Shown here piece by piece: positions 15,705 through 42,034 of a DNA stretch of 64,000 bases. The notes beneath the pieces were generated by a model. That model ran no database searches and was not told the DNA's origin. It saw only the letters and a list, made by a program, of their open reading frames with translations. Made by a program: the position numbers and the translations under genes. Source of the stretch: Imbricaverruca yamaguchii (lineage: Eukaryota; Arthropoda; Thecostraca; Neoverrucidae); contig JAOTOL010001268.1 of the NCBI GenBank assembly GCA_034440575.1, positions 62,001-126,000 of the forward strand. Reading direction: 5' to 3'. Position 1 is the first letter of the stretch, and every line of letters begins with the position of its first letter.

Positions 15705-18003
15705 TTGGTGTTGTGGTCTGCTAAGATGAAGATACAGGTTACGTTGGCTGATTTTCCTCAAGAAGAATAGCAAGAGGAGGCATGCAGGTATTTAGATCCT
15801 GAATATGAAATAGCTGGTGGGCTCGCAGGCAAGGGGGATTCGGGTGGTAGGACGGGGCTATCAAACGTTAAGGGTTTTATTTCAGTTTAAGCTAGGTATC
15901 TATGAGACAAGTTTTACATATATGCCCTCATGAAGCAAACAAATAGGTTAGATTTGGTTAGGTTGGGTTAGGCTAGACTTCTGTTTTGTGTTGGAAAAAT
16001 TATTTATGAGAAAATTGTTGGGATATTTTCCCAAAAACATTATCCTTAACAAATGGGTCACAGTAGGTTAGGTTAGGCAAAGTTTTTATGTTCATTATTT
16101 TAGTGCAATAGGTTGTTTGGAAATTTTCCATTTTAAAAAAATTGCTTTCTTGCGTGGAAGGTTAGGCTAGGTTGCTTAAAGTTAGGCTACATTTTTTTTG
16201 CTACTTTGGACATCACTTTTCATGCTATCTTATCCAATTCCAAGCCCCTTTTTTAGTGTTACTTTGCCTCCAACTGAAAAAGTGTGCCCTTGCAGAGGAA
16301 ATGAGTAGTTGCATCATGTTGACAATATATGTTATAATAACATTGGCATCAGAAAAATAAATTCCAAGAACACAAAATTTACCCTACACTGCAACTTTGC
16401 CCCTTTGGTGATACCACTGTATACTTGGATGGTGATTTGGATAACCATCCTCAACAAGGAAATACCCTGATAATAGGTTGGTCTTTGCTTTGGACTCTGT
16501 TGGATGAAAATTGTGTTGGCCTGTGGAAAGCTTCATCACCTTTTGTTCTGAAAAGTTTCAAATTTGATAATACCAGACAAGCTTTGCCTATTACTTAGTA
16601 CCTACCTTAGTTGGCACATAGGTGCCTTCCTAGAATCTTGTGATTAGTGTCTTATGTTTTGAGTATTATTGCACTTTAAGGTATCCACAAAAAGTTGTGC
16701 ACATTTTACCTCCATGAAGCAAGCATATAGGGTTATATTTGGTTCAGCGTGGTTAGATTAGGAAGGTTAGGTTTTTCCTTTCATTGGAAAAAAGAAAATC
16801 AAAAACTTTTTCAGATATACTGTCCGAATAAATTTGTTTTCTGCAAGAACAGGTCAGGTTAGGCTATATTTTGACATTTTTTGCCGAGTCGTCCGACTGC
16901 TCGGTTGGGCGACTCGGCGCAATCGGCTTCGGGACGAAAGGAGTGAAGTATATGAATAAAGTATTGAAACGCTTGGGTACCCAATGACAAACAGTACTTT
17001 TCAGGATGTGTGGGGAGTAACATGCAAAGTGACATCAAATGCATGACGGTCATTTGCATTTCTGACAACATTTCAGTTGACCAAGTTTGATTTCATTAAC
17101 CTGTCATGAACTTGACCTGACTTGACCTCCGTGACCAAACATAACTTTGAAACTATAAAGCATAACAATACACACCAAATAAATCGCAGGTGTTGTCATG
17201 GACACTTCCCTTTTGCCAATATACGGGATGCGCATCAGCACCGATTTTTGTTAACTGATGCTGCGACTTTTTTCACTTTAACGGCCCCTTTTCTAACTCG
17301 AAAAAAATGTCGGCCGATTTCTGAGTTGCTTGCTTTAAACAACGTGACGGTCATTTCTAGACAGTTACGCAAACAATCGTGTATATAAGCCGGTAAAATC
17401 TGTAGTTATGTATTAAAAAACGGATGGGTGGGCGGATTTCGACCCCCCCCCAATCCAGGGCGCGTGCTAGCCTAGCCAAACCTCCAATTGGAGATATAAT
17501 CATGGATTGATAATCAAATGGGGCATTTTGATAGATGCAATACTTTGTTGTTCTTGTTGTGGCAAGATAATTGCCGAAACTAAGATGCCTAGGAATATAA
17601 TGTTGTAAACTCGAAGGTGCATATTGAAGTATATTTCTGTCCTTATTTTCATTCTGGATTCTCCATCTCAACCTTCTCCTGAAGGGTAGCTTCTGGCTCC
17701 AACTTCTCCTGTCTCGATCTTCTGCCTGCACCATAAGTCGGCCTCAGCCCAGCCTCTGTCTACTGGGATTTTATATCTATTATAGGGTCGACTATTTTAT
17801 AACGAATGATTATCTTGGAGATAGCTGCTAATGTGGTCAGGTAAACAGCAGGTCAGGGTTTTCGCACTGTGGAAAGAGTGGGAATACAAGAAATATGCAA
17901 CCGGATTAATGGTTCTAGCTTACCATGCAAGATTGACAAATTTTACACACTTTTTCTTGAACAAAGTGAAGTCCATGGCTGATGCCAAAATAATTTGGCA
18001 TAG
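15705..18003 (+). repeat. Dispersed noncoding repeat, copy 1
   Basis: This segment is collinear with 45555-49707. Shared landmarks include 'agcaagaggaggcatgcaggtatttagatcctgaat', 'ggtatctatgagacaagtttta', 'cctccaactgaaaaagtgt', 'gtatccacaaaaag', 'ttggagatataat' and 'ataatttggcata'. It lacks one MITE present in copy 2 and has a deletion removing the left half of the second MITE. TTAGG-like clusters lie at 15952-15975, 16051-16075 and 16160-16190. There is no long ORF. Confidence 0.8.
16866..17466 (+). mobile_element. MITE of the CACGCGCCCTGGAGG family, left end deleted
   Basis: It matches 48530-49103 (shared 'gcggctcggcgcaatcggcttc', 'gacggtcatt', 'gggtgggcggatttc') and ends in ccagggcgcgtg, the same right terminus as the intact copies. 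Its left terminus and adjacent flank are missing compared with copy 2. Confidence 0.7.
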
Positions 18004-18417
18004 GCCATGGTGAGTGTATACTGCAAATCCTAGGCACGCCATGGTGGAGAGTGGCGAGGGTTGACGCTAAAATCCAAAAGTTGCCCCCCCCCCCCTAAAC
18101 CGGTGGGGTAGATCCCCCAGTGCCCATCTGGAGCTATCATGGCGCCTTGTAACCAAGGATTTCACTAATTATTTTCATCATTTCAACTTCCGCCCGGACC
18201 GATAATTTCAAACCAGAAGCGAGAAGAGGTGTTGGCAACATACCTTCGACTATGATTATATTAGGCGAATTTCTGTCCAAAGTTATTTACATACACCGCA
18301 CCACTGAGGCAGTTTGTAACAACTTAGAAACTGCACCCCAAATAAATTGGCGGGGGAATTTTTTATTTTGCGATTATATTTGAGGGGGAGTTTCTGGACG
18401 TTTTTACTCTTGTGATA

Positions 18418-18556
18418 AGTGGGCCGATTCTGGCAGTATTATAACGTATTATAACGCTAGATCAACCCACAGGGCAGAAGGCGGCACCGAAAACCCCGTT
18501 ATAGTAGGAAAATCAGTTTACTATTTCGGTCCCCATGTAGGGGACGTATCAAATAT
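18418..18556 (-). pseudogene. U2 snRNA pseudogene, 5' truncated and diverged
   Basis: The reverse complement runs from ATATTTGATACGTCCCCTACATGG through an Sm-like ATTTTC to GTTGATCTAGCG and a final CCAGAATCGGCCCAC. It is collinear with the U2 3' part at 18949-19098 but carries many substitutions, a duplicated 'ttataacgta' block and no first ~55 nucleotides. Flanks of the two U2 copies are also similar ('ccgaccgagaatttc' against 'ccggaccgataatttc'), suggesting a diverged tandem U2 repeat about 530 bp apart. Confidence 0.75.
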
Positions 18557-18948
18557 TATGCTTCTTCCGTACCTCTGGTGTGCCAGACGTTCAGCTGATT
18601 ACAGAGCAATCGACACCCTGTCTGGAGCTAAGGAGGCGCTTTTAATGGCAACTGGGAATCTCACTGTGAATGTCAAAGTTCCAACTTTCACCCGACCGAG
18701 AATTTCGTACCAGGTGTGATACGAGGAATAGGCTACCTTCGAATACGCCACTCAGACTGTCGAACATTATTCATACTACACACCATCGTAATCCAAGCGA
18801 ATGAAATAGCGCCGACCAGCTTCATTCAGGCTGGAACCGAAATTCAAGGACTAATTACCGATGAAAAATATGAGCGCCGAGGATCTTACCCCACCCATTT
18901 CTTTAAAGGGCTGAACTTTCTGTCGCTTTGTTTTTCAATTTCCGGTAA

Positions 18949-19098
18949 GTGGGCCGATTCTGGCTGCAGTGCAACGCCAGATCAACCCGTGGAAGGGTAG
19001 GAGCGAGCTCCGAAAACCCTACCAAGGTCCAAAAATCAGTTTAATATTCTGGCCCCCATGTAGGGGACGTATCAGATATTAAGCTGATAAGAACAGAT
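18949..19098 (-). ncRNA. U2 snRNA gene, 3' part (split by a retrotransposon)
   Basis: The reverse complement continues U2 from ATCTGTTCTTATCAGC and GATACGTCCCC through an Sm site (ATTTTTGG at about 19038) to the stem-loop GGAGCTCGCTCC, then GTTGATCTGGC and an end near GGCCCAC. The first 42 nucleotides lie 11.6 kb away at 30692-30733. The two parts share the 6-bp duplication acagat (19093-19098 and 30692-30697). Without the insertion the gene would be about 186 nt, normal for U2. Confidence 0.9.
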
Positions 19099-19866
19099 TT
19101 TTCCTTTATTTACCAATAAATGCTTGATCATCAGTGTTTACAAAATAACAACGACATCCACCAGTGCCCTGGCACCACGCTGGTGCCCCGGCATACACAA
19201 ACCTGCTCAGGTGCGCTCCCGGCGACCGAATCCAGGCGCGGTAGGCCGCACGGGAGCGCACCACACTAAACACACAAATGAAAAGAAAAAAACAGAGCAA
19301 AAACATTAATAACTGGTGCCACACGGCCGCGGCCGCACGCCAGTGTATCATGTAAAAACGTTAAAATTGCATGTAGAATGCCGGGCGGGCCGCCCTCTAA
19401 TTAAACAATAATAACAAAAGCAAAAACAATACAAAAACAAAACAGTACAATACATTCATACATATGAATAAAGGACAGGGGTGGGCCACGGCGGCCAAAA
19501 TGGCCATAAAAACCGTGGCCCGAGAGACGGCCCGCCCTAAAATAAGAACACATATTATGACATTTAAAATGCACCTCCCACGCCGCGGCCCGCAAGACCG
19601 GCCCGGCGCGGGTACCAGCGTCCCAGCCCGGAGCGGCGCGCCAACACAACACAGTCGGCGCGCCACCCCGCGGCCCGGCCGTCCCGTGGCCGGGCAAAGG
19701 CTGGGCCGGCAGCACCCAGCGCTGCTCCAGGCAGCGCCAGCCGCCGCCGCAACGACCGAGGGGTAGTTGGGTCCTGGGAAAGGACAAGGAACCCCCAGGG
19801 CGGAGCCATCGAGAGTCCCCCGCTCCCTCCACCCAGGGCCCCGCATGGTATGGCGTAACACCCTGC

Positions 19867-22800
19867 CTATCCGCGGTCGTGACGTACGACCGCGGGTTGC
19901 TGGTACTGGCGGCGCCCGGTGACGTGTTCGACGTACACGTCACGGGACCACCTCAGGGTGTCACTCACCATCAGCTGACGCATAAGCTTCGCATAGAAGC
20001 GGCTAACGCGCAGCTGTTTGAGGGCGGCTTCATTCCCCCGGCACCAAGTGCCGAGGGAGCCCACGACGAAGGCGTGGATCGAGGCCGTTTTGCCCTGCAG
20101 GCGGAGCTGCTCCACAAGGGGGGCATACTTCGCCAGCTTCCCGTCGGCAGCGGCACGCAGCGCGGCGGCTCGGTTCTCGAAGGCGATGGTAACATCGACC
20201 AACGAGACCTCGTTGCCACGCGTCACGACCAGGTCCGGGCGGAGAGCCGAGTCTACGCCCGGCACCCGCCGATTGACACGCAGCTCCGTGCCACCACGCT
20301 GCGGCACCGCTTTGGTGAGGCGGGACAGCACTGCGTTGTGGCGCAACTGAAACGCAGCACTGTGTGGCCTACAGTGGTTGAGGACATGAGGCAGCGTCTC
20401 TTTGGCGTAGCCACAGCGCCGGCAGCGCCGGTCCCGTGCGCCACGCTGGTAGCCGTTAAGCGGCACGAGGCCCAGCCTTGCCCGGTGCACAAACCGCCAC
20501 TCGGCAAACCGTGTGAAGCTCCCACTATACATATAGTGGGAGCTCACAGGCTGGCTGGCGACACACTCCATGACCTTACCCTGGTGGGGCTTGGCCAGGA
20601 GGTCAGCCAGCGCGCGTTGGCGGATCGCATCCCGGACAGTGCGGGCCCCCCTGCGCGGCTCGACAGCCGCGGTGCCCACGTGGAGCACCGGGCCGGGGAC
20701 GGCAGCATGCCACGCAATGGCCACTCGGGAGGCCAGCGCCACGGTGGCGACACGAGTACGCGTGAACCGTGAGGACACGTCACCGCCATCTCGCATCCGC
20801 TCCCCATTCAGGTAGGCTGCCAGGTCAGCTGGTGTGGGTGCCCGGCCGAGCCGACGTCGAACCACAGTCTCGAGCTCGACGCTGGCGAGGCGCGCCGTCT
20901 CGGGGTCGCGGGAGTGGAGGAGCTGCGACGTGGCAGCCGCCATTAAGACGTCCGCCTCCGCCACATACTCCGTCAACCCCACGCCACCCGACGAGACAGG
21001 CGCGTACAGGTAACCCCCGGCGGCACTACACGGCACGCCGAGGATCCCCTTCACTCGCCAGCGGAGCGCCACGTCGAACGCTCGAAGTGGCCCCTTAGGC
21101 AGCACGCCGAGCCGCAGGCAGTGGGTGAGTCGCGGGACGATGAAAGTACGCAGTGCGTCCAGCTTTTGCCAAGGGGCAAGAGCCGAATCGCACAGCCTCT
21201 CAGCATCCCGACGCGCTTCAGCCAGCACCTGTAGCGGCGGCTCCGAGAGTCGGGTGTGGCCCACCTGTCGGCCCAGGTACCGGTAAGAGCTGCCCTCCTG
21301 GATGGCGGGCAGCGGCACACCACACAGCGTGAGGTCGGGCGGGGCGACGGCCCGCACCGACAGCAGTCCTGATTTTGCTGGGTTCGGCTGCAGCCCACAC
21401 CAGTGGCAGCCGCGCTCGAGCACGCCAAGCCCACGCCGAGCAGCCTCGGCGGTGGGGAAGATCATTGCCAGGTCGTCCGCAAACGCTAGGCACCTGATCT
21501 CCGCGCGCTCCAGCGCACGCAGCAGGGGCTCCATTCCAATATTGAAAAGGAGCCCACTGAGCGGACAGCCTTGCCGAACGCCCCGCAGGGTGTCAACACG
21601 GGCCGTCAGGCCTCCACCAGTGCGGAATCTGGTAGCCGAACCCTCGTAGAGGTCACGTAGAATGCCCAGAGCCTCGGTCGGAAGACCGAAGGCGTCCAGG
21701 ACACTCCAAAGGTGTGAGTGGGGGACCGAGCCGAACGCATTGGCCAGGTCGACAAACGCCACATGACACCCCTCATTGGAGCGACGGGCCCCATTGACAG
21801 CACACTGGATCACAAAGTTGTGCTCCAGCACACCATCAAAGGACCTGAAGCCCTTCTGACCGGGCGACAGGACGTCTCCCGCCTCTGCCCAGGCGCTCAT
21901 CCGGTCCGCCCACACCCCAGCGTACAGCTTGGCAACCGTCAAGCCTAGTGCTATCGGGCGCCAGCTGGCAGCCACGCTGGGGTCGCCACCCTTGTGGATC
22001 AGGACCGTCTCGGACTCCTTCCACGACGGTGGTACACGCTGCGCCCGCCGGCACAGCTCAAATGCCGCCGCCAGGAGGAGACAGTCGGGATCCAGGGCGC
22101 GCCACGCGGCATAGCGCAGGCCGTCAGCACCCGGCGCCGTGTTGGAGGCACGGCGCAAGCGGCGCAGGACCTCGTCTCGGTGGACGGGCGCCGTCAGGTG
22201 CGGGCAGTCGGGGGCACACCCCAGCTGGGGGGCCCCGGCCGGCCAGTCCGCCCACGGTTCCCGCTCCTCCGGCTGGGCAGCCAGGGGCGCGGCAAAGTGA
22301 GCTCGCAGGTCGGCCTCCGACACCTCACACCGCGGCACCGTCCCCTCGAGAAGGCCCCGCACCGCCCTGGCGCGATCGGTCCTGTAAAGCCGCTGGAGTC
22401 GGCTGGCCTCGCGAGGGTCGTGCATCGGGGCCCGCCAGGGCACCCGGTGATTCTCCCCGCGCGGCAAAGCCGCCCCGGGAGGGGGTTGGGGCGGGGGTCC
22501 GTGGACGGGCACACGTCCATGCGGGGCCCCAGGGGGACGAGGGGGGCGAGAGGGAGGTCTGTGGCCGGGCGCCCGGGCGGTAGTGCCCGGCGCACCAGCA
22601 CCGTTGCGGCCGCCGCCCGTACGGCCGGCCGCGCGCCTGAGGTGATGCTCGGCGTTGAGCTCCTCCGCTCGGTGGCAGAGCTCCTCCAGGGCCGGCTCGA
22701 CCTCCGTCCAAGAGGCCCTGCGATCGAGGAGGCCCCGAAGGCGCTCCAGGAGCTCCTGCTGGAGAGGCGACAGGCGCCTCTCCGCCGGAGCAGGGGTCAC

Positions 22801-23351
22801 CGCCCGGGGGGTATCGGGTGTCCCTGGGGTAGGGCGGGTCGGGCCAGGAGCCGTCCCACCGGCAGCCGCCCCGCGGCCGCGGCCACGACCCCGGCCACGA
22901 CCACGGCCCCGGCCACGGCCACGGCCACGGCCACGGCCACGGCCACGGGGCGCCGGCGGAGACCCACGCGGGGACCGGGACCCGGACGAACGAGACGTGA
23001 CGGGCCCACGGTTCCCCGCCAGGGTAGACCCCGGGGAGGGTAGGTGAGGAACGGGTGACGAGACAGCGCCGGACGACCCCGAGTCAGGGTCGGACACCGG
23101 CACCGGCACCGCCCGCCGGGGGGAGGATAAAGTTGCGGCCTGACCGGTCGCGGCCGGCGGCCCGCCACAAGCACCGACAGGCCGCGGCACCAGGGAGTGC
23201 GGCCCGCCAGACGAGCGGCCCGCAGCCCCAGCGCCACCGCCGGCCGGCACACGGCAGCCGCGGCCACGCACGGCCTGGCCAACGGGCGAAGCGGCGGGCC
23301 CGCGACGGGCGGGGAGGGGACGGGGAACGCGGGCCGCAAGGGGGATATAGG
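19867..23351 (-). pseudogene. Utopia-like ORF, C-terminal half: RT and restriction-like endonuclease
   Basis: Open on the minus strand from the Gypsy insertion to a stop at 19867, about 1,160 codons. A low-complexity GR-repeat and Pro-rich linker comes first, then a basic segment RLQRLYRTDRARAV typical of R2-group proteins. RT follows with NTAPGADGLRYAAW, motif A AFVDLANAFGSV, motif B GVRQGCPLSG and catalytic FADD at about residue 628 of this half. A C-x2-C-x8-H-x4-C knuckle lies at about residue 975. The restriction-like endonuclease residues follow in PDLVV (about 1043) and VSLVDVT. The half is free of stops, so it was intact when interrupted; its N-terminus is now beyond the 3.8-kb Gypsy element. 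It would nick the U2 target and prime cDNA synthesis there. Confidence 0.88.
23347..23351. repeat. Target-site duplication ATAGG, left copy
   Basis: ATAGG directly precedes the left LTR, and the identical ATAGG follows the right LTR at 27140-27144. A 5-bp duplication is usual for Ty3/Gypsy integrases. Confidence 0.9.
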
Positions 23352-23563
23352 TGTGATGGTGCACGCTCAGTCCTCACTGTCTCTTGAGATGCACTGCTCT
23401 ATCACGGTCTCTATATTGTGTACGGCTCGACACACACGCTGCTGCCTCTGGCCTTGCCCTGACGCGACTGGGCCCTGCCAGGGCTCGCAGTCGGAAGTGG
23501 GTCGCGCGACCGTGGTGCCATAAACCACGGCCCGCGCTCGGCGCATGCGACACACGCACAACA
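23352..23563 (-). repeat. Gypsy element 1, 3' LTR
   Basis: 212 bp, differing from the right LTR only by A instead of G at 23356. The polypurine tract lies immediately inside at 23564-23573. Confidence 0.93.
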
Positions 23564-23667
23564 CCTCCCCTCCAAGTTCATGGTCAGGTTCCAGACTATG
23601 CCAACGACTACTACACACTTCCACCTCCCCTCCGAGTCGACGACGACGGCAGACGGTTGGTGTCGAC

Positions 23668-25281
23668 TCACAACACCCTGCCGCCACAGCTCGTGCTACA
23701 GCACAATGCTGCACAACATGCACAATGCTTCACAACACATCGTACCGGCGAGTGCGTGAAGGCTACTCGTAAGAGGGAAGCCTGGGGTCGATTTGGAGGC
23801 GAGCGGGGCGGTGAGAGCGTCTGCCGCTGCGACGGGGAACCGGACTGGTCGGTGGCTGTGGGGGGCGGTGACCTTTGGTCGGTCAACTCGTCCGCAAAAC
23901 GAACAGTGCGCGGTGGGTGGGTCGGCGCGGCCTGACTGGGCGGCGCGGACGGACACGGCGGTGTGTACTCGAACACGAGCGGGCGGAATGGGCGCAGGAA
24001 ACGGCGATTGCGCCAATATATGCGGCCACTGGGGAGCTTCACTAGGAAGTCACGCCGTCGGCCTACACCTACAACGGTGCCTCGCCGGTCCCATAACCCG
24101 GTCGAGGGGTCCTGAAGGGACACGTGGGTCCCAACGCGCAGGCTGGGCAGTGGCATGGCCGCTCGATCATAGCGGTCACGGGCCGCTTGCCGGAGTGAGT
24201 CGGCGCGGGCGTCACAGTCGTCAGCGGCTCGCTGCCACTCAGGTGCGAAGGCACGGTGGTGCATGGGGACCGCTGAGCGCAGAGGACGGCCGTAGAGGAT
24301 TTGAGCGGGTGACCGGTGGTCCGCTCGCGGGGTGTTGCGAAGCTCTAGCAGCCCACGAGCGAACGCATCACAGTCAAGGTCCCCCGCTACGGTCACTTTC
24401 TGCACCAGTCTCTTCACTAGTTTGACGGCCGCCTCAGCGTGGCCGTTGGACTGCGGGTAGTGCGGGGTAGACATGTGATGTGTTACGCCCCAGCGCCGCA
24501 GGAAGTCTCTGGTGAGATGAGCAGTGTACTGTGGGCCACCGTCGCTGCGTAGCACACAGGGAACACCGGTGGAGGCGAAGATTTCCCGCAGGTGCCGGAT
24601 CAGAGTCCGGGCGGTGGCGTCGCCGGCGCAGTGCACAACTGCGGGCCACCCGGAGAGCCGATCAACGTACACCAGGTAGGTCTTGCCTGCGTGACTGAAG
24701 GAATCTGTAGACACAGACTCGAAGACTCGGCTCGGCGGGGGGTCCGACATCAGCGGCCCTCGCTGCTGGCGAGGCAGCCGTTCACGGCATACCTGGCAGG
24801 AGCCAACGGTGTCGGCAACATCGCGGTCGATGCCGGCCCAGTATACAGACTGGCGTGCGCGGCGCTGTGTGCGTTCGATGCCTTGGTGCGAGTCGTGCAG
24901 GCGCTGCAGAGTCTCTGCTCTGAGGCTTCTGGGGATGACCAGCCGGGGACCACATACCAGGATTCCGTCGTCAACGGCCAGGCGATCTCGCACGCCCCAG
25001 TATGACCTCAGGGCAGCAGGCAGGTCACGTCTCTGATCAGGGAAGCCGTGTGTCACGGCCTCGCACAACGCTATGTACTCGGCGTCGGCGCGGGCGGCGT
25101 CGCGGACGCGGGTCAGCGTGGCATCCTCGATGGGAGACACCCGGGCTCCGTCTGGATCCAGCTGGGTCACTGAGCGCACGACGAGACTGTGGAGCTGATG
25201 AGTCACGTCATCTTCGGCTTCCTCGTCGTCTGGTGTGGGGTCATCCACGGGGGCTCTGGAGAGAGCATCTGATTTGTGCAC
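23668..25281 (-). CDS. Gypsy element 1 integrase (with RNase H remnant at its start)
   Basis: About 537 codons read from near the deletion junction. The first residues (HKSDALSRAP) are the end of an RNase H domain. An HHCC zinc domain follows (HDSHQG, then CQVC, about residues 134-170). The core has the D, D, E catalytic set in VSTDSFSH, RSDGGPQYT and PQSNGHAEAAVK. A basic GPY/F-like C-terminal module ends in YWRNRRFLRP, and a Pro/Ser-rich tail reaches almost to the 3' LTR. It inserts element cDNA into DNA. No ATG start is available; in a complete element it is cut from a pol polyprotein. The first codon given here is GTG. The catalytic core looks intact. Confidence 0.9.
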   Translation of the reverse strand: MHKSDALSRAPVDDPTPDDEEAEDDVTHQLHSLVVRSVTQLDPDGARVSPIEDATLTRVRDAARADAEYIALCEAVTHGFPDQRRDLPAALRSYWGVRDRLAVDDGILVCGPRLVIPRSLRAETLQRLHDSHQGIERTQRRARQSVYWAGIDRDVADTVGSCQVCRERLPRQQRGPLMSDPPPSRVFESVSTDSFSHAGKTYLVYVDRLSGWPAVVHCAGDATARTLIRHLREIFASTGVPCVLRSDGGPQYTAHLTRDFLRRWGVTHHMSTPHYPQSNGHAEAAVKLVKRLVQKVTVAGDLDCDAFARGLLELRNTPRADHRSPAQILYGRPLRSAVPMHHRAFAPEWQRAADDCDARADSLRQAARDRYDRAAMPLPSLRVGTHVSLQDPSTGLWDRRGTVVGVGRRRDFLVKLPSGRIYWRNRRFLRPFRPLVFEYTPPCPSAPPSQAAPTHPPRTVRFADELTDQRSPPPTATDQSGSPSQRQTLSPPRSPPNRPQASLLRVAFTHSPVRCVVKHCACCAALCCSTSCGGRVL

Positions 25282-26912
25282 CAGGGTCTGGTTCGTGCTG
25301 ATTTGTCGTCGGCGCGGGGTCGCGCCGGCGCCTCCTCTCGCGTCCTCGTAGAGGTGTTGTCATCCAACGGCGGTGACAGCCCCTCTCGTCTGACAGTGCT
25401 GCCGCTAGGCGGCACGGCTTCCGTATCCGTTCCACCGGCGGCCACGCTCGCCACCTGACTGGGGAAGTCCGGTGGCAGAATTCCGAGGGCGATGGAGTCG
25501 TGCCAGGAGAGCAGGGCGCTGTCCAGGCCCTGTATGACATGCACGGTCACTGTCGCTGTGATTGCACCCAATGTCAGGTCACACTGCACAGTCCCAAAAC
25601 ACTGGAGCTCATGGCCACCAGCTGCATACAGCTTGTCCGCGGGCGGAGACAAACGACTTATGTCCACGTGCATTTCCGCAGCCTGTGCCACGCCAATGCA
25701 GGAAGTTTCCGCTCCGGTATCGGGTGTCCAGAGCGTTGAGCCGGCACCATTATGGTGGGTCGTAAACAGCCGGATCCTGGGAGAGCGGCGGGACGACAGG
25801 CCGTAAACTCGTATGTCGGACACGTTCGCACGATACTGGCCCGAGTCTCTTTGTCTGGAGCTGTCGCGCTGTGTTGGGGCTGTTCCAGATGTCGCGCCAC
25901 GCTGACGACACCTGGCCCGAAAATGGCCGCGACGGTGACACAGGTGACACGTGGCCGTCCGGGCAGGGCATGGCTGCCCGTCGGCGTGCGGGTAGCGACC
26001 GCAGGCGGGACACCTGTCCAACGTCGGATGCGAGTCTGTCCGACGGGTGTTTGAGCCGCTGGGATCCCTGCGACGAGTGCCTGGGCGGCTGGAGTCTGAC
26101 TGACGGGCACGGGCAGTCCTGTTCCGACGATATGCGGACACATGTTGGACGTGGCCGTTTGTCATGGCAGCCGAGTTCTGACGGGCGTTTTCTTGCGCAC
26201 GGCAGATGTGGACTGCTGACTGCAGGGTGAGATCACTTTCGCTCAGAAGCGCACGCAGGGTGTCCTCATCCCGGATCCCAGTGACGATGCGGTCGCGAAG
26301 CTGTGGGTCCGTGCAATGCGGACAGAAGTCGCAAAACTGGGCGATTTCGCGCAAAGCCATAAAAAACTCATCGAATGTCTCACCGTCCGCTTGCTGACGG
26401 CGGAAGAACTCTCGTCGGTCCAGGATCACGTTACGCTGCCGACGCAGATGGCGCTCCATACCTCGGATGATGGTCTGGATGTCGGACGTGGAGACGTCAA
26501 TATCCAGACCGTGACGGAGGGTTCGCGTCCACTGGTCGTCGAGCAGGGCGACGAGGGCGGCGGTTTGACTCGCCGGCGGGAGGTCATACAGACCGGTGAG
26601 AATGGCGTACCCCTCGAATTTGTCCCGCCAAGAGGCGAACTCGCGCAGGCTGGCACCTTCCATCAGCCTGGGGGCAGGCGTGGCTGTCGCACCCAGCCGT
26701 CTCGTGCCGCGGGTGGCTGAACCAGGGTCAGCACCGGCGGCATCGGTGCGGTCGGCAGCGGAGTCGGTCAGCGTGCTGTGCTGCGGTCTGGTCTGGGCGG
26801 CCGATTCGGCCAGCGCCAGAAGCCGTTCCTCTCTCCTGGCGGATGCTGTGGCTTGCTCCGTAAGCAGATCCGTCAGGCGGGAGAGGGTTTCGGTGAGAGC
26901 GTCCGGATCCAT
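25203..26912 (-). CDS. Gypsy element 1 gag-protease polyprotein
   Basis: 569 codons from the ATG at 26912, only a few bases after the primer-binding site, so the leader is unusually short. The N-terminal two thirds is a capsid-like region (LREFASWRDKFEGYA, FFRRQQADGETFDEFFMAL). A Cys-rich pair follows with the knuckle CHLCHRRGHFRARC (about residues 327-341). The aspartic protease active site WTPDTGAETSC lies at about residue 395, with a hydrophobic flap region and LLSWHDSIALGI. Gag and protease are one frame here. Beyond about residue 500 the frame is low-complexity and overlaps the integrase frame by 79 bp, which marks the deletion that removed RT. No stop or frameshift is seen. Confidence 0.9.
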   Translation of the reverse strand: MDPDALTETLSRLTDLLTEQATASARREERLLALAESAAQTRPQHSTLTDSAADRTDAAGADPGSATRGTRRLGATATPAPRLMEGASLREFASWRDKFEGYAILTGLYDLPPASQTAALVALLDDQWTRTLRHGLDIDVSTSDIQTIIRGMERHLRRQRNVILDRREFFRRQQADGETFDEFFMALREIAQFCDFCPHCTDPQLRDRIVTGIRDEDTLRALLSESDLTLQSAVHICRAQENARQNSAAMTNGHVQHVSAYRRNRTARARQSDSSRPGTRRRDPSGSNTRRTDSHPTLDRCPACGRYPHADGQPCPARTATCHLCHRRGHFRARCRQRGATSGTAPTQRDSSRQRDSGQYRANVSDIRVYGLSSRRSPRIRLFTTHHNGAGSTLWTPDTGAETSCIGVAQAAEMHVDISRLSPPADKLYAAGGHELQCFGTVQCDLTLGAITATVTVHVIQGLDSALLSWHDSIALGILPPDFPSQVASVAAGGTDTEAVPPSGSTVRREGLSPPLDDNTSTRTREEAPARPRADDKSARTRPWCTNQMLSPEPPWMTPHQTTRKPKMT

Positions 26913-26916
26913 ATTA

Positions 26917-26927
26917 CCGACGCGCCA
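26917..26927 (-). promoter_or_regulatory. Primer-binding site of Gypsy element 1
   Basis: TGGCGCGTCGG directly inside the 5' LTR begins with the TGG that pairs with a tRNA CCA end. The donor tRNA cannot be named from the sequence alone. Confidence 0.6.
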
Positions 26928-27139
26928 TGTGGTGGTGCACGCTCAGTCCTCACTGTCTCTTGAGATGCACTGCTCTATCACGGTCTCTATATTGTGTACG
27001 GCTCGACACACACGCTGCTGCCTCTGGCCTTGCCCTGACGCGACTGGGCCCTGCCAGGGCTCGCAGTCGGAAGTGGGTCGCGCGACCGTGGTGCCATAAA
27101 CCACGGCCCGCGCTCGGCGCATGCGACACACGCACAACA
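26928..27139 (-). repeat. Gypsy element 1, 5' LTR
   Basis: 212 bp, the promoter LTR for the minus-strand element, followed on the plus side by target duplication ATAGG (27140-27144). Confidence 0.93.
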
Positions 27140-30100
27140 ATAGGGACTCGAAGACGCTCCAGAACTGGACGACGAGGGGCAGCGGGGGCCCGCCGCAGAG
27201 GAGGTCCGGCCCCCACCAGTAACCCCCACCCGGCCCACACCCGCGCCGGATGCCAGCACGGGGACGCCACCAGCCCGTCTGGACAGGAGGCGCCCGACCG
27301 CACGCCGGCCCGGCGGCACGGGGGGCGGTGCAGGGCGGAGGTCACGGCGGTGCCAGGTCCCCCCATCGCGGACCGGGTCCAACCGCCTGCAGGCGGCAGG
27401 GGAGCCAGCCACGGCGACGGGCCGAACCGCAGCCTCCAGCGGGGGGAAGCCCTCGAGATCGGTCGAGGCGGCAGCGGGCGACGCCGACGAGCGGCCCACC
27501 GAGGGCAGCGGGCGCCCCCATACACTCACGGGAGGCGCGGGCAACCGCAGCCGGACGCTCCCCTCCCCACTCCTGGAGGAGGAGATGGCGTCGGGCCCGC
27601 CCCCGGCAGGCCCGGGCCCGCAGGCACACGGCGCAGGAGCGGCCACGTCACCACCACCGACCGGGCCGCCACGCCGCGGCCCGGCCACCACGCCGCTGAG
27701 CCACCGGGTGACGCGCGCGCTGACACTTATGCTGCGGTGGGCGGGCGGCACCTCCGACGTCGTCCTCTCCTCCACCAGCCGCCCGCCTAACCGCAGCTCC
27801 CTCCACGGCCGCCCCGGGGCCGAGCCAGGGGCGGCCACCGCGCGCGCGTCCTCGTCTTCTTGTTGCTGTTCGCCGCGGCGGCCGGGCGGCACTTGGCGGG
27901 CCTCGTCACTGGTACGCCGCCCGGTCCGCCGCGGCCCATCCTCCAGCCGCCCCGGGTGTGGCGGCAGGGGCGCGCCCTCTCCAGCCACGGAGAGGCGGCG
28001 CGACCGGAGCCGAGGCGGCGATGGCGGCGGCACCGGCGATGATGGCGACGATGCAGAAGATGATGATGCTCTCGGCGGCGGCGGCACCGGCCCGCGAGGG
28101 GGGCGGAGAACGGGTGCGCGGGGTGACGGGCGCGAGGGCAACGGGCCGCCACCACGTGGTGCGGTGTCGGCCGACTCCCGCCGCCCACCCACGTTGTCCT
28201 GGCCACCCGCTCCGGGGCGGGCCGGTCGTCTGTCCCGGGCGTGCTCCACCGAAGGGGCCGCCGATGGTCGCGGTCGCTCGTCAATCACACGCTGTGGGAC
28301 CGGGGGTCGCTCTCTACGCGCCGTGACTCGCCTTCCGGTGCCTTCATGCGCCGGCCGGTGGTCACCAGCTGGGCAGCGTGGTACGGGCGGAGGCGCTGCT
28401 GCTGGTGCAGCTAGAGTTGCCGCGCCCCGGCGTCCACCCCTGGGCGATCGATTACCGGGCGGACGCGGTCGCCGGTTTCCGGTGTGGCCATTCACAGGTT
28501 CAGAGGCCGGCGGCCGCGACCGTTGCGCACGCCGGCGGTCCCCGGGTGGGGGGTCATGGCCGGGGACGCGACACCGCGTGGCTGGTGCAGCTGTTGGGAC
28601 GGTGGGGGTTGGTCTGCCCCGGCGCTCCGGTCTGGCAGACCGATTGCCTTGGAGGGGGTGCCGATGTTTTGAGTTCCCGTCGGCGGGTAATGGGCACGGT
28701 CGGCCGGGCCGGGCTGGCTGACGAGCAGCCGCGACAGGGCAGGTCAGCCGCTCGGCGGGCCGGCGCCGCGCCGATGTGAGGCTCCGGGACCCAAGGGGCG
28801 GCGACGCAGACCCCCGAACGTCTGGGGAAGCTCGCTGGGGGGTGGGACTGCAAGGTGTCGGCGCCGCTGACACCACCCACCGACCTCGTCGTGGGGACGG
28901 CGACCGGGGCTCCCCGATTCCCGGCGGCGTCAGCCGAGGGCTGGGGCCGACAGGGGTCGGGGACAACAACTCCGGCTCGCGCTCCCGTCCGGTCGGCAGC
29001 GCCATGGGCTCCAGAGGCTCTGGGGCGGCGCGCTGGGGGGTAGGGATGCGGGGTGTCGGCGCCGCTGACACCACCCACCGATTTCGTCGTGGGGACGGCG
29101 ACCGGGGCTCCCCGACTCCCGGCGGCGTCAGCCGAGGGATGAGGCTGACAGGGGTCGGGGACAGCAACTCTGGCTCGCGCCCCCGTCCCGTCGACGGCGC
29201 CGCGGGCTCCAACGGCTCCTGGGCGGCGCGCTGGGAGACAGGGATGCGGGGCGGCACAACGGCACCACAGGCACAACACGGCACAACTTCCGTCTCCGAC
29301 AGCGAGCGGGCTCGCCGCGCCGCGGCGGCGAGGCCGACGGCAGGCGACGGACGGCGACGGTGAGCCTCCAGACCCCAGAACCAGTCGCCGAGCGCGCGCA
29401 GGTCGGGGGATCCGGTCTCGGTGCGCCGACCGGCCGGTGGGTCCGGCTGCTCCCAGCTGGAGTTCCAGGCCACCGGCAAGTCGGTGTGGCTGGAGTCGGA
29501 GGCGGCGGATCGGCTGGCCGGTGACCTCAGCAGGGCGGCGAGGCTGGGCATGCTGAGGCCAGGCGTCGCTTCCAAACTTGCGGTGGCGTCGGCGTCCTCG
29601 ATGGGCTCGGCACTGGCACCCCGCCACTCCTCGACCCCAGAGTCGGGGTCCGAGTCAGAGTCAGTGGCAGCGGGCGGCGGTGTGCGAGGAGGCGGTGTCC
29701 AGGAGGGGGGTCGCAGCGGCGGCGGCGGGGTCATTGGCGCGAATTCCGGCATCGCAAACCGCGGCGACGGAGAGGGCGAGCGGCTGCCAGCCACCGGAGC
29801 CGGGGTCACCGGGGACGGCGACGGAGAGGGCGAGCGGCTGCCAGCCACCGGAGCCGGGGTAACCGCGGACGGCGACGGAGAGGGCGAGCGGCTGCCAGCC
29901 ACCGGAGCCGGGGTCACCGGGGACGGCGACGACGACCGGTGACGGTCGGCACTCCTCCGGTGGACGGCATTTTCGTGGGCCGGGGCCTGGCTGGGATGCG
30001 GAGCGGTCTGTCGGGCGGCTGGTTCGGCGGACGGCGGCGACGGGCGACGATGGTCGGCGTTCCCCCGGCGGACGACCACTACGTTGGTCGGTGCCGGGCT

Positions 30101-30532
30101 GGCTGGCGACGCGGCCGGTCGTGCGGCGTTTGTCGCCGACGGACGCCGGCTCGAACACTGGCGCAGGTGGTTATAGAGTCCTCGTAGGTTCTCGAACCGG
30201 CGCCGTCGGCAATGTGGGCACTGCACTGGTGGTGGTGTGAAGGCAGGCTGGGCCGGTCGCGGTGTTCGGCAGACGTGGTTTGATGGTCGGCGACCGAGCC
30301 CGGCCTGGCACCCAGCACACACCCATATGGTGCGGAACACCTCGGTGGCATGGGCGGCTCGGAGGTGGCGCAGGATGCTGCCGCGACGCGTGGTGAATGG
30401 CTCCACCGTGTACCGCGTCGCGCAGCCCTGGATAGGGCATCGCGTCGGCATCGGTAGGGGGAACGGCAACAACAGCCGCCCCCCATCCAGCACCACAGCG
30501 TCGGGGGCGACGACGGCACCGGCACTCGCCAT
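27140..30532 (-). pseudogene. Utopia-like ORF, N-terminal half: zinc fingers and Pro-rich region
   Basis: Open from ATG 30532 to the Gypsy insertion, about 1,130 codons. Zinc fingers come first: C32-x4-C37-x18-H56-x4-H61, then a Cys-rich WVCAGC segment and CPHCRRRR...HLRQC. Such fingers bind target DNA in R2-group proteins. Most of the rest is Pro/Arg/Ser-rich with internal duplications (SRSPSPSP at about residues 215-260; a module around GVSGADT-type sequence repeated near 28.8-29.2 kb). Subtracting the 3,788-bp Gypsy element and one 5-bp duplication (3,793 bp) puts this frame in register with the C-terminal half, a single frame of about 2,290 codons. In the present genome the frame runs on into the LTR and stops at 26987. 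Confidence 0.85.
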
Positions 30533-30691
30533 CGCGCGCCCTCTACCGATCGCGTGAAGTCACATTTACACACTTCACTTATCACCGCTCTCCACACACC
30601 GTCTCACCACTCAGTCGCGAGGTTCGCCGCCGCACCTATTTTCACCAATGTAGTGAATGTCCGGTCGCCATATCGGTGCGTGTTCCAATCG

Positions 30692-30733
30692 ACAGATACT
30701 ACACTTGATCTTAGCCAAAGGCCGAGAAGCGAT
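30692..30733 (-). ncRNA. U2 snRNA gene, 5' part (split by a retrotransposon)
   Basis: The reverse complement begins ATCGCTTCTCGGCC and reaches the branch-point recognition sequence GTAGTA, then ATCTGT at the insertion point. It has GGCCTTTGG where U2 normally has four nucleotides between GGCC and GGC, so one base is missing. The remaining U2 sequence is at 18949-19098. Split this way, the locus cannot make normal U2. Confidence 0.9.
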
Positions 30734-32509
30734 GCAATTTGGGGGTCCTGTTCGAATTTTTGGAAATTTCCATGTTGACGTTTCGTTTAGGAACTAAAAA
30801 AAAAAATTCCCATTGACGGTTGGCGTCGAAAATCAGGTGAAAGTTTGATTTCTACACGAATAACTGCTCATATTTGTCCATCACGAACAAAAAACCCTTT
30901 CAAAAAACATTTTGGGAAAAATAATTAAAACTTGAGTCTGCCCCAAACAGCACTGCAGATCCTACACGGGGCGGACCGTCAGGCCGGCTGGACGAGCGGC
31001 GCCCATGTCGGGTCGACAGCAGCGCAGAACCAGTGCTGGGATTGTCCCTTCTCCTTCACCACAGCATGGACCGTCCTAGTTAATTAAACTGCCTACCAAA
31101 CCGCATTTTCACCATCAATTAGCATAAAAACGGGTTTTCGCGTAGATGGCGCCACTGTTCCGCTTTCGACGCGATAGGAGACGCTTTGCTGCTGCCTTCG
31201 TCGTTTTGCCAAGGCTGGTCGTGCGCTCGAACACCAGCTCGCCGTCGTACCAACAGATGGCACGCCACACTGCAGTCATCGACCTGTTTATCACGTGACG
31301 TAGTGCAGCAGGCACCGCCGCCGGCGCCGGCCGCCGCCGCCCAGGCCACAGTCTCTCGCCGGCGCCGCTTGATACAGAGTTGGGGGCGCGGCCGCCCGGA
31401 CGCAGCTGTGTCGGTGAGATTCACATGCGGACCACACATCGGCATGCTGGATTAGTCATGGACCCGCACTGAAGGTAACAGGGCAGCACATAAGCTGCAG
31501 CAAACACCACCATCCTCCATGTCTTACCTTCAGGTATTCCAAAAGGTTTTTTTCCGTTGCCATTTCGATAACGTCTCCATTCCGGTGAGTTTGTACATGA
31601 AAGTTCAGAGGGTAAAAAGAAACCCACCTCCTCCTTCATACAGCAGCATGGAACATGATACATGAAACTTTGATGTATGTACTGGTCAATGATTTTGTGC
31701 ATTATGAATCCTCTGTCCCGAGTGAACCGGCTGGCGGCCATATAGAGTGGCGCCCATACCGTGTTTGGAGAGGCCACCAGACAGTCTTGGGATTGGCTTC
31801 CTCCATCCACACAGCACCAACAACCCGAGCTATGTCATTTTCCAATACCTAAAGAATAATATACAATAGAGAAAACGTGTAGGAGCATTCCTCACTTTCC
31901 ATATTTTCTCCAGATCCCACGATATCCCACCGCAAGATTGATTAGCGAAAGCAGCCTTATAGTAAAGACGTTCTTGATTCAGCATGCATATCAAATCAAG
32001 CGTCATATATAGCCAGGAGCGCCTATCTCCCTCGATAGCCCACACCGATTTCGATTCGGCAGCCAATACCCGGAGCCGATTATGCTACATACCCAGGGCC
32101 GGAGACACGATTTTCTTTCATCCTCCTCCCCTCTCCCAGGACAAACCAAGAAGCATGGAAGTAAACGAGGAAAGATTCCGGCGTGCGAAGCTCGTAAATT
32201 TATATTTTTGCGTCGCGAAAATCTAAAAGAATTTCGTTTGATCTGGTGTATTTCGGTTGCTAGTGGTCGGCCGCCACCACTGGCTGCACCTGTTCACACC
32301 AACCTTGCATCCCAAAAACACTCCTCGACAACACAAATAATTTGCTAGTTATGCCGAAGTAACCAATGGCAAAACCGCTACCTCCCTCAGAATGAGGAAA
32401 CTTTAAAGACATACTGGTAGTTCCAGCAGGCGCCCTAAAAACTCGATGGGAACGCCTTTGTATGTAGCTCCAGAATTACCACCTAATACGTTAGAATAAA
32501 TTATTTGAC
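30734..32509. other. No recognised gene; upstream side of the U2 locus
   Basis: 30734-30960 is the 5' flank of the split U2 gene and would hold its proximal promoter; I cannot place a PSE with confidence. 31115-31440 is a GC-rich stretch. 31420-31860 contains a 130-codon minus frame without a motif I recognise. Confidence 0.4.
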
Positions 32510-37746: not shown

Positions 37747-37751
37747 GCCGG
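37747..37751. repeat. Target-site duplication GCCGG, left copy
   Basis: GCCGG precedes the left LTR and is repeated at 42267-42271 after the right LTR. Confidence 0.9.
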
Positions 37752-37987
37752 TGTAGTATGGTGACTGGGCTGTAGTTGCACAATGGATGAGTCAGGGTAT
37801 GACCGGGGGGGGGACCGTCGATCGCGCCGTATTAGGGCATGGCCCAGCGATGACCGCGTCACGTCTGGGTGGGGGGTGACGCGCCTGAGGCGGGGAGATA
37901 GCCCCCGGCTGTGGTGTGAGTCAGTCGGTTCGCAGGCTCCGACGCGAGTACATGAACCCGGCACGTGAAAGAGACTTTGCAGCTACA
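37752..37987 (+). repeat. Gypsy element 2, 5' LTR
   Basis: 236 bp, TG...CA ends; four bases longer than the 3' LTR in its G run near 37805. Confidence 0.93.
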
Positions 37988-38022
37988 AGCTATTTCGGCT
38001 TTACCGTAACAACGTGACAGCC

Positions 38023-38811
38023 ATGCCGGGTTCCGGGGAGGAGGAGACAGTGACCAGTGCTGTGCCGGTGGAGCAGGGCGGACAGGCTCGGTATTTCGAC
38101 ACGCGATATATCCCGGAGTTTAGTGGTACCGGTGATAACGTGTCGGAGTGGTTCGTGAGGGCGGAGAAGCTGTGCCGTCGGCGGGGAGTGCTGTTCACGG
38201 ACGTCCTACTGGAGCGGCTGACGGGCGCCGCTTTTGCGGTGTGGGAGCAGATGTCTGAACAGGCGCAAGGGTCACTGGAAGCTGTCCGCGCTGCGCTGTA
38301 CGACGCGTTCGCTCCCAATCGCTACGTGGCGTTCGCGGCGTTCCAGGCCAGAGAACTACAGCCGGGAGAGTCGCCGGACGCCTACCTGGCTGACCTCCGC
38401 CGGCTGATGGATCTGGTGATCGGCTCGGGGGAGGCGTTCCCGGAGACGGTTATGGCGACCAAGTTCGTGTCTGGCCTGCCGCTGCGCGTGCGGACACAGC
38501 TGAAGGCCGGGACGCGAGCACAGGCGGTGCCGCTGGCGGAGCTGGTCCGTGTGGCGCGGGAGATCCTGAGCGATGAGGCCGCCAACGCGACCGCTGCCGC
38601 TGCCGTGGCTGGCCAGCATCAACATACGGAGGCCGCGTCGGCGGTTGTGGCGGCGGCCCGCCCGGACGACAGACGGCCGAACCCGACCCCGCGGCGGCGC
38701 TGCTGGACCTGCGGCGCCTTCGGACACCTGGCCGCCTCCTGTCCACGTCGTGCGGCGGGAAACGCTGCCGGGGGCGGTGCGCGAGCGCAAGCGCCGTCTC
38801 CGGAGGCGTGA
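38023..38811 (+). CDS. Gypsy element 2 gag (capsid-nucleocapsid)
   Basis: About 262 codons. The first ATG is at 38023; an in-frame GTG lies nine bases earlier. The capsid-like part contains YIPEFSGTGDNVSEWFVRAE and WEQMSEQAQGS, with ESPDAYLADLRRLMDL matching retrotransposon gag domains. A single knuckle CWTCGAFGHLAASC (C-x2-C-x4-H-x4-C) lies near the C-terminus, after an Ala-rich stretch. It would form the particle and bind element RNA. It overlaps pol by 4 bp in the -1 frame (gcgtgagc), so pol is probably made by -1 frameshifting or reinitiation. No damage is seen. Confidence 0.88.
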   Translation: MPGSGEEETVTSAVPVEQGGQARYFDTRYIPEFSGTGDNVSEWFVRAEKLCRRRGVLFTDVLLERLTGAAFAVWEQMSEQAQGSLEAVRAALYDAFAPNRYVAFAAFQARELQPGESPDAYLADLRRLMDLVIGSGEAFPETVMATKFVSGLPLRVRTQLKAGTRAQAVPLAELVRVAREILSDEAANATAAAAVAGQHQHTEAASAVVAAARPDDRRPNPTPRRRCWTCGAFGHLAASCPRRAAGNAAGGGARAQAPSPEA

Positions 38812-40781: not shown

Positions 40782-41522
40782 CACGCACGGCGGGTTTGTG
40801 ACGGGCGGGTGACGCGGTCGGTGGTGCGGGAGGTGGTGGCGGCTTGCGACGTGTGTCAGTCGATCGACCCGGCGCCCGTGCGTTGGAGGCACGGCCATCT
40901 GAGCGTGCCCCGGTGCTGGGAGCGCCTGGCAATTGACGTGACTCACGTGCGCGGCGCTGCCTACCTGACGATCATTGACTGTGGGCCGTCGCGCTACGCG
41001 CTGTGGCGCCTCCTGGACTGGGGTGAGACCGCAGAGGCCATTGTGGGCTTGCTCGAGACCGTGTTCCTGGAGCATGGTGCCCCGGCGGAGGTGCTGCTGG
41101 ACAATGCTACAGTGTTCCACGCGCGTCAGATGGCGACGCTCGCGGCACGCTGGGGAATTCAGCTGCACTTCCGTGGCGTGCATGAGGCGGGTGGGAACGG
41201 AATTGTGGAGCGACACCATCGTACCGTCAAAGTGATGGCGGCACGACAGGGCTGCTCCGTGGCTGTCGCAGTGCATCGGTACAACGCCACGCCGAGGGAC
41301 ACCGCTGACGCAAATTCCGCCCCTCTCGCCTGCCTGTTCCGGGAACCCGGCCGAGACTTGCCAGTCGATGCGAGTCCTGTAGGACAAGGCGCGCAGCCAC
41401 GGTTGCGATCCGGTTCGCTGCGGCCGGGCGAGCCGGTATGGGTGCGCCGCCGCGGTAACACGCCGTGCATGACGGTGTCTCGTCCCGGCGTGGTGACGCG
41501 GGTGCTGGCACCCCCCTGGTAG
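40782..41522 (+). CDS. Gypsy element 2 integrase, downstream of an in-frame TGA
   Basis: Same frame as pol. It supplies the Cys-Cys half of the zinc domain (ACDVCQSID), then the catalytic core with LAIDVTHVRG, LLDNATVFHA and GNGIVERHHR, the D, D, E set. The C-terminal module GEPVWVRRRGN then runs into TAG at 41520 right after a C6 run. The continuing homology (VEVDGTPWHRRNIRRR) is one frame away, so a 1-base loss in the C run is likely. Confidence 0.88.
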   Translation, partial: HARRVCDGRVTRSVVREVVAACDVCQSIDPAPVRWRHGHLSVPRCWERLAIDVTHVRGAAYLTIIDCGPSRYALWRLLDWGETAEAIVGLLETVFLEHGAPAEVLLDNATVFHARQMATLAARWGIQLHFRGVHEAGGNGIVERHHRTVKVMAARQGCSVAVAVHRYNATPRDTADANSAPLACLFREPGRDLPVDASPVGQGAQPRLRSGSLRPGEPVWVRRRGNTPCMTVSRPGVVTRVLAPPW

Positions 41523-41989
41523 AGGTGGATGGCACCCCGTGGCATCGCCGGAACATCCGTCGGCGGTACCCAGCGCGCAACCCGGTCGCGCCCGATGAGC
41601 GGGCACCAGCGGATGACGACGAGGCCGGTCCTGACCCGGTGCCACCACCTCTGCCGCCGCTGGAACCCGCGCCGCCAGCACCGCCGGCAACGCCGCCTGA
41701 GACCGAGACGGTGGAGGTAGAGCGGCCGCCGCGTGCGCCGCCCGATCCTGTGTCGCGCGAGGTGTCTGGTGTGCCGCCATGTAACATCACTGCGGACACG
41801 ATGTCAGATCTGGACTTGACGGTTGAAGACTCGTCTGATGACGACTATGTACCCGACGTGCGGCTGCGGCATGCGGCGCGGTGGCAGGCGACGCCGCGTC
41901 GCAGCGAGAGGCTCGCGCGGGCCAACGAGCCGACAGCCGTGCCGGGCTGTTCCAATGTGGATCCGTATGCATGGGTTGATAGCGAGTGA
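41505..41989 (+). pseudogene. Integrase C-terminal tail, out of frame
   Basis: This open frame contains VEVDGTPWHRRNIRRRYP, the expected end of the integrase C-terminal domain. A Pro-rich, acidic tail (DDDEAGPDP; SDLDLTVEDSSDDDYVPD) follows, with stop at 41987-41989, 45 bp before the 3' LTR. It is reachable only by a frameshift near 41511-41516. Confidence 0.75.
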
Positions 41990-42020
41990 ATATGTGTTCT
42001 GTGTTATGTGTGATCCTTGA

Positions 42021-42034
42021 AGATCAGGGGGTGG
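42021..42034 (+). promoter_or_regulatory. Polypurine tract of Gypsy element 2
   Basis: AGATCAGGGGGTGG ends at the base before the 3' LTR, where plus-strand DNA synthesis would start. Confidence 0.65.

Follow-up and report, generated by a model that had tools for sequence, protein, structure and literature searches.

A Utopia-type retrotransposon of mosaic composition within a U2 snRNA gene of the barnacle Imbricaverruca yamaguchii

Utopia elements were described by Kojima and Jurka (2015; PMC4640811) as retrotransposons without long terminal repeats (non-LTR) that insert in U2 small nuclear RNA (snRNA) genes. According to the portions of that paper drawn on here, the 3' junction of both Utopia and Keno lies between U2 nucleotides (nt) 38 and 39, and the two have the 3' flanking U2 sequence in common, Keno being an unrelated element of the Tx1 clade with an apurinic endonuclease (APE). 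The same portions state that Utopia families differ in their 5' boundaries, that their target duplications are absent in arthropods, 20 bp long in reptiles and unclear in oomycetes, and that NeSL, YURE and R5 fall in one clade with Utopia in the published tree. Here, a stretch of 64,000 nt from the barnacle Imbricaverruca yamaguchii was analysed (the window; assembly GCA_034440575.1, contig JAOTOL010001268.1, positions 62,001 to 126,000), in which a U2 gene is split by a long insert. It was concluded with high confidence that the insert is a Utopia-type element, i.e. a non-LTR retrotransposon with a single open reading frame (ORF) that encodes a restriction-like endonuclease (RLE) and inserts in U2 snRNA genes, and that the window holds a mosaic copy later split by an LTR element.

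The split U2 gene and the inserted element

The features of the locus are given below in window coordinates, together with their basis.

30692..30733, minus strand: 5' half of the U2 snRNA gene, nt 1-42 (Rfam RF00004, 46.1 bits, and sequence)
18949..19098, minus strand: 3' part of the same U2 gene, starting (A)TCTGTTCTTATCAG (Rfam RF00004, 119.2 bits, and sequence)
30692..30697, minus strand: duplicated target bases ATCTGT, upstream copy (acagat on the plus strand)
19093..19098, minus strand: duplicated target bases ATCTGT, downstream copy (acagat on the plus strand)
30734..30843, minus strand: undisturbed U2 upstream region, reading towards the element (alignment of 15 upstream regions)
19099..30691, minus strand: Utopia-type non-LTR retrotransposon, split by an LTR element (junctions; same ends in other genomic copies)
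27140..30532, minus strand: N-terminal part of the ORF, 1,131 codons up to the nested element (ORF)
30155..30439, minus strand: three zinc-finger-like motifs, C-x4-C..H..H, C-x2-C..H-x-C and C-x2-C..H..C (motif search)
19867..23346, minus strand: C-terminal part of the ORF, 1,160 codons with the stop, comprising linker, reverse transcriptase (RT), CCHC and RLE (ORF)
21271..21999, minus strand: RT domain (Pfam RVT_1, E 1e-26)
21472-21483, minus strand: FADD motif of the RT (motif search)
20371..20424, minus strand: CCHC zinc knuckle (motif search; inside the second stretch aligned with the R2 structure 9nl2)
20125..20241, minus strand: RLE core, RPD ... LVDVT ... K (motif search; second 9nl2-aligned stretch, i-Evalue 1.5e-11)
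19099..19866, minus strand: 3' untranslated region ending AAATAAAGGAAAA (sequence; other copies)

The U2 pieces are separated by 11,593 bp on the minus strand, and both attain the gathering score of RF00004 (46), the matches spanning 18944-19126 and 30671-30733. The 5' half corresponds to nt 1-43 of the Rfam consensus minus one T in the stem I loop. The downstream piece resumes at nt 39, i.e. the 3' junction lies at U2 nt 38/39. The insert begins with CGATTGGAAC and ends with AAATAAAGGAAAA. Because the element ends in A, the target duplication is either 5 (TCTGT) or 6 bp long. A preliminary description, made from the sequence alone, had reported a U2 gene split into nt 1-42 and the rest around an 11.6-kb insert with the 6-bp duplication acagat; both were found, the duplication at either end, with the provision that its A may be element tail. 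No Rfam match other than the U2 pieces is listed at the element 5' end. The upstream region of the split gene was alignable with those of the other U2 genes of the assembly among the 15 regions aligned, except for two loci (L008 and L010).

An older copy of U2 lies 0.4 kb downstream of the split gene on the same strand.

18416..18562, minus strand: older degenerate U2 fragment, 5' part gone (72% match to 18946-19085)

This fragment lacks nt 1 to about 52. It was considered as a second Utopia junction and ruled out, since it starts at about nt 52 rather than 39.

The zinc fingers, the RT with its FADD motif, the CCHC knuckle and the RLE residues named in the preliminary description were all located by motif search, the RT by Pfam as well. 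Pfam listed nothing at the zinc fingers over the N-terminal ORF part, and these are known by motif; local matches joined their region to parts of 10 homologues, e.g. P0068 with 36.5% identity over 115 amino acids (aa). Behind the fingers comes a long linker rich in Pro, Arg and Ser that contains tandem repeats, namely three 62-nt copies at 54-bp spacing (29762-29931) and two 198-bp copies (28797-29192). No APE domain, Ulp1 protease or Myb domain was listed by Pfam on the two ORFs, Myb having been sought by Pfam only. In a sequence search against solved structures the RT and CCHC/RLE parts aligned with residues 322-824 and 924-1144 of the R2 protein 9nl2, and R2 was matched better than the LINE-1 structures. 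The two ORF parts share one phase across the nested element, 1,131 codons lying ahead of it and 1,160 beyond the duplicated 5 bp. The proposed length of about 2,290 codons without the nested element stands as arithmetic on these parts rather than as a joined sequence. In the copy on contig C517, the frame that covers the RT is open for 2,412 aa and stop-free in the match.

A protein search scored 7,993 candidates, of which 94 passed the threshold of E 1e-3; the best named relatives belong to barnacles, with matches of 72% and 58% in Pollicipes pollicipes and of 58% in Amphibalanus. A search from an alignment of distant matches returned 9 proteins, among them no labelled R2 or NeSL references. 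An RT tree was built of 32 rows, i.e. 29 chosen by hand from the 102 proteins found, two R2 proteins and the window. The tree grouped the window with Pollicipes and Amphibalanus in a clade of 9 rows (100/99) and divided all 30 non-R2 rows from the two R2 proteins (100/100). These 30 rows include proteins of Pelodiscus, Camponotus and Dendroctonus, which are hosts in Table 1 of the Utopia paper (PMC4640811). Judged from these sequences, R2 is excluded by the tree, and a finer placement with Utopia rather than NeSL, R4 or HERO is tentative. In an earlier 46-row tree with APE outgroups the long branches joined and the outgroup did not form one side; the window again stood with the barnacle rows. 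Membership in Utopia, as proposed earlier, is supported, because the insertion site, the endonuclease type, the zinc fingers and the RT all fit. The earlier term "R2-type" holds only when taken broadly, as the tree separates the RT from both R2 proteins. A distant Utopia-like RT protein of metagenomic origin, P0090, was also seen to bear a precomputed PF13532 domain; its source names it AlkB.

U2 genes and element junctions across the genome

The census covered the window's own assembly (767 Mb, 1,430 contigs). A covariance search gave 46 scored U2 matches of 13,851 first-look candidates. With a pattern of U2 nt 44-72 and at most 3 mismatches, U2 3' segments were found at 70 places, 66 of which were read: 49 stood behind a Utopia-like tail, defined by a loose motif that also admits diverged tails, 13 kept the U2 5' half and 4 were of other kinds. 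Few whole U2 genes are left in this genome.

The U2 5'-half pattern was met at 20 places, 12 uninterrupted and 8 interrupted. All of the latter were read, and 5 (the window, C62, C517, C484 and C1349) have TCTGT followed directly by CGATT at the element 5' end. The C1349 copy is rearranged just inside this junction, and the C62 copy has its own junctions at the same U2 bases as the window's. Two more of the 8 (C1101 and C711) lead into truncated copies. The interrupted half at C794:81747 is a tandem insertion behind a minimal one: GTAGTA is followed by 15 nt of element tail, and this by TCTGT and the 5' end of an element. At this locus (L068, C794:81663-81843) the 15-nt tail lies exactly between U2 nt 38 and 39. 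A further element 5' end follows ...TCTGTTCTCTGT at C794:56147, where the first part of the U2 stretch is missing. Element copies exceed insertion events, since some disrupted units duplicate one another (C1184 has a given truncation point twice, and C544 shows it once more).

The site and orientation of the insert, its domains, the junctions shared between copies and the large number of these copies are read directly from the DNA. R2-type elements insert by RLE nicking and target-primed reverse transcription, and a similar course may be proposed here. The N-terminal zinc fingers would place the element protein on U2, the protein would nick the bottom strand between nt 38 and 39, as for R2, and the nicked end would prime reverse transcription of the element RNA. 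A cut in the second strand some bases downstream would leave the short duplication. The transcript would probably be provided by U2 readthrough, because the element has the orientation of U2 and the U2 upstream region ahead of it is undisturbed. At 5'-complete ends, the constant TCTGT may reflect either top-strand cutting or the RNA 5' end, and the longer junctions of truncated copies (given below) decide neither. The frame of the window copy was split afterwards by the LTR element.

Uninterrupted U2 genes were compared at nt 39, leaving out a two-mismatch match at C1218 and an interrupted one at C711. T39, as in GTAGTATCTG, is present in five (C682, C848, C1274 and two otherwise degenerate ones at C1214), and nine are altered there, reading CCTG (4), ACTG, ACCG, AACAG (2) and AACTG. 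In an alignment of 11 U2 genes, column 41 (nt 39) has three states; up to column 66, variation is otherwise confined to the loop of stem I (16-18), to 24 and 43, and to the columns of a one-base shift in two genes. Of 57 predicted pairs, 4 show changes on both sides that preserve pairing, and all 4 belong to stems III-IV. The stems of the nt-39 variants are intact and the conserved upstream block is kept in most. The base is printed as a capital in the Rfam U2 consensus, where capitals denote strong conservation. The variant C1421:1356148 changes nt 41; in the part of PMC1276797 used here, function is reported to require the pseudouridines within U2 nt 34-46, and every U2 that was mapped is said to have those at 41 and 43. 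Separately, L008 (C1430:1680913) and L010 (C1345:1097562) are structurally intact U2 genes with an altered nt 39 and without the upstream block common to the other aligned U2s.

These counts invite the explanation that changes at nt 39, beside the nick, protect the surviving uninterrupted genes as escape alleles. The nine altered genes against five with T39 and the three states of the column are in its favour, as is a class of U2 with CCCCG in the second hairpin region (class G), of which all 7 uninterrupted genes are altered at nt 39. Class G also stands behind a Utopia tail less often, 3/10 against 46/52 for the rest (two-sided p 3e-4; excluded were the unread 4 places and the 4 "other" rows, of which 2 are class G, and 6 rows whose class was unclear were counted with the rest). 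However, class-G U2s with C39 were found directly behind a Utopia tail at C83:20210 and C309 (the two perhaps copied from one event) and at C1421:1315224. Another class-G U2, at C1421:1584696, lies behind a poly-A end. Independence of the counts is also lacking, as loci differ and arrays duplicate. Protection by nt 39 would therefore be at most partial. Escape was weakened as the main account by the census and is considered unlikely. It is likewise doubtful that repeated Utopia cutting shaped the host U2 genes, the nt-39 variants (C, A and AA) being repair scars that lower but do not abolish susceptibility, while co-resident Utopia lineages exchange their DNA-binding front ends. If true, the scars would be a natural counterpart of cut-site resistance alleles. 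The variants pose a testable question, namely whether changing a single base in an essential snRNA can free a host from a site-specific retrotransposon. No report of U2 escape variants was met among the titles and abstract openings listed in literature searches.

Composition of the window copy and its surroundings

The preliminary description had treated the element as one Utopia member, and a mosaic of two lineages was not seen there. The 5' third is of a type of its own (W-type).

28086..30691, minus strand: W-type 5' third with 5' untranslated region, zinc fingers and Pro/Arg/Ser-rich linker (genomic comparison)

Over its whole length (the first 2.6 kb) this part was matched only in C517 (98%) and C62 (93%), in addition to partial matches, and it had no match in the 20 U2-cluster stretches fetched, which hold copies of the common lineage. 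The zinc-finger parts of the window and of the common-lineage copies share 33% protein identity. The adjoining 946 bp were matched by common-lineage copies at about 97% over positions 131-946, with no row listed for C62 (40 of 48 candidates scored), and the break lies near 28085/28086. In the RT, C517 is 99% and C62 71% identical to the window. In C62 the W-type 5' third is thus joined to an RT of about 70% identity, in the window and C517 to the common RT. Since this third occurs with both RT types, the lineages must have exchanged sequence at least once. The window copy is a mosaic, its 5' third belonging with a second U2-inserted lineage whose RT is about 70% identical and the rest with the common one. 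The same arrangement in the full-length U2 insertion of C517 suggests that the hybrid was mobile, and a further mosaic seems to be present at C1421:1584791-1590595.

With regard to direction, we infer that the front was swapped into the common lineage. Alternatively, no swap of the 5' third took place, the window type being ancestral and lost or replaced in the common lineage. The direction is not polarised by an outgroup, and three zinc-finger-like motifs occur in both types (judged by eye in the common one), both of which would accommodate such a history. Nevertheless, W-type 5' thirds are joined to RTs of about 70% (C62) and 99% (C517, plus the window), so at least one exchange is needed whatever its direction, and an ancestral window type is regarded as improbable. 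The locus provides a case at the DNA level in which two lineages at one target site swap the zinc-finger region and keep site and junction. In the part of a 2026 R2 study used here (PMC13188248), N-terminal capture between lineages is raised as a possibility from old divergences. The idea that the window-type front end serves altered U2 genes was dropped, as the W-type 5' junctions that were read (window, C62 and C517) are all canonical, GTAGTATCTGT.

The ORF is interrupted by the nested element.

23352..27139, minus strand: nested LTR retrotransposon (LTRs, ORFs, flanking duplication)
23347..23351: ATAGG, 5-bp duplication on one side (sequence)
27140..27144: ATAGG, 5-bp duplication on the other side (sequence)
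25203-26912, minus strand: gag-protease-like ORF
23668-25281, minus strand: integrase ORF

Its two LTRs of 212 bp differ by 1 mismatch, and RT/RNase H was not found among its ORFs or by Pfam. The interior (3,364 bp) was matched whole at 95-100% in 22 of 42 rows, the window included (40 of 277 candidates scored). The other rows match 1-1665 or 1657-3364 only, and both pieces are listed on contigs C1261 and C438, about 1.46 kb apart. This points to an RT-lacking, non-autonomous LTR family with gag-protease-like and integrase ORFs, present beside relatives whose middle is about 1.46 kb longer.

Two direct repeats of 234-238 bp (98% identical) surround a GC-rich 4-kb stretch at 37750-42266, whose two large minus-strand ORFs gave no Pfam match; a further LTR element or a composite one is the probable identity. 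The insertion also lies between the members of an AT-rich repeat pair (16890-17769 and 48559-49408, about 880 bp, 82% identical), and neighbouring repeats likewise occur on either side of it.

Strictness of targeting and comparison with known systems

Several results weigh against the assignment to Utopia. The RT tree holds no row labelled Utopia, NeSL, YURE, R5, R4, HERO or CRE. The 5'-truncated copies C1101 and C711 keep 11 and 13 bp beyond U2 nt 38; the top-strand cut therefore does not always fall at 5 bp. Of the 40 3' ends scored among 133 candidates, 5 (80-83% identical) lie away from U2, and 25 of 64 RT rows (79-98% identical), on 19 contigs including C44, have no listed U2 3' segment. 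Finally, 5'-complete ends show a duplication of 5-6 bp here, whereas arthropod Utopia elements have none and reptile ones 20 bp, as given in the consulted part of PMC4640811. Since the published 5' boundaries vary among families, this length is not a family-defining failure.

The preliminary description had asked whether each genomic copy sits at the same U2 nucleotide, with copies at unrelated sites counting against it. Most of the scored 3' ends (34) are at a U2 3' segment and 1 (C44) is at a U2 remnant, so its expectation held for the majority and failed for the 5 elsewhere. U2 targeting is strong, not strict; mixed U2 and non-U2 insertion is described for Utopia in some hosts in the used part of PMC4640811. 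Among 10 dispersed 3' ends picked by hand, no tail was found at C1238 and the tail was unclear at C1372. The remaining 8 have T as the first base other than A behind the tail; 5 of these resemble TCTG/TCTA and 3 (C1346, C1399 and C1030) do not. The dispersed end at C1357 is followed by TCTGT and the 5' end of another element. Given the choice by hand, TCTG-like bases at dispersed junctions are suggestive only.

The split gene could also have arisen by chance juxtaposition or as an assembly artefact, with two unrelated U2 pieces flanking an element, given that U2 genes are clustered as repeats here and that the degenerate piece (18416-18562) adjoins downstream. However, dozens of copies, spread over many contigs, join an element end of this type to one and the same U2 base, the window U2 halves meet at the common 5-6 bp, and C517 has a window-like upstream region and an identical 5' junction, which makes an artefact highly improbable. 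A Keno-like, APE-encoding element of the Tx1 clade at the same site, conceivable from the 3' flanking U2 sequence that Keno and Utopia share in the passage cited (PMC4640811), is refuted to a negligible probability by the RLE and CCHC residues C-terminal to the RT, the lack of a listed APE domain and the better match to R2 than to LINE-1 structures.

As a Utopia-type element, the insert extends U2-specific retrotransposons to a further host group, the barnacles; these are not among the hosts in Table 1 of PMC4640811, the part of the paper compared, and no report of a barnacle Utopia was met among the titles and abstract openings listed. Like Utopia in the sections of Kojima and Jurka (2015; PMC4640811) used here, the window element has its 3' junction at U2 nt 38/39 and one ORF with N-terminal zinc fingers (1-3 in Utopia, three motifs here), a central RT and a C-terminal zinc finger and RLE. 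In both cases disrupted U2 genes exceed intact ones, some copies lie at short U2-like motifs, insertion may be tandem and several families occur within one genome. It differs in being a mosaic of two lineages and in its long ORF (about 2,290 codons, set beside no published Utopia lengths). With R2 it shares the RT, CCHC and RLE architecture, but its target is U2 instead of 28S rDNA and its RT is separated from the two R2 structures at 100/100. The U2 3' junction is identical to that of Keno, which encodes an APE endonuclease where the window element encodes an RLE, and NeSL, YURE and R5 have other or weaker targets.

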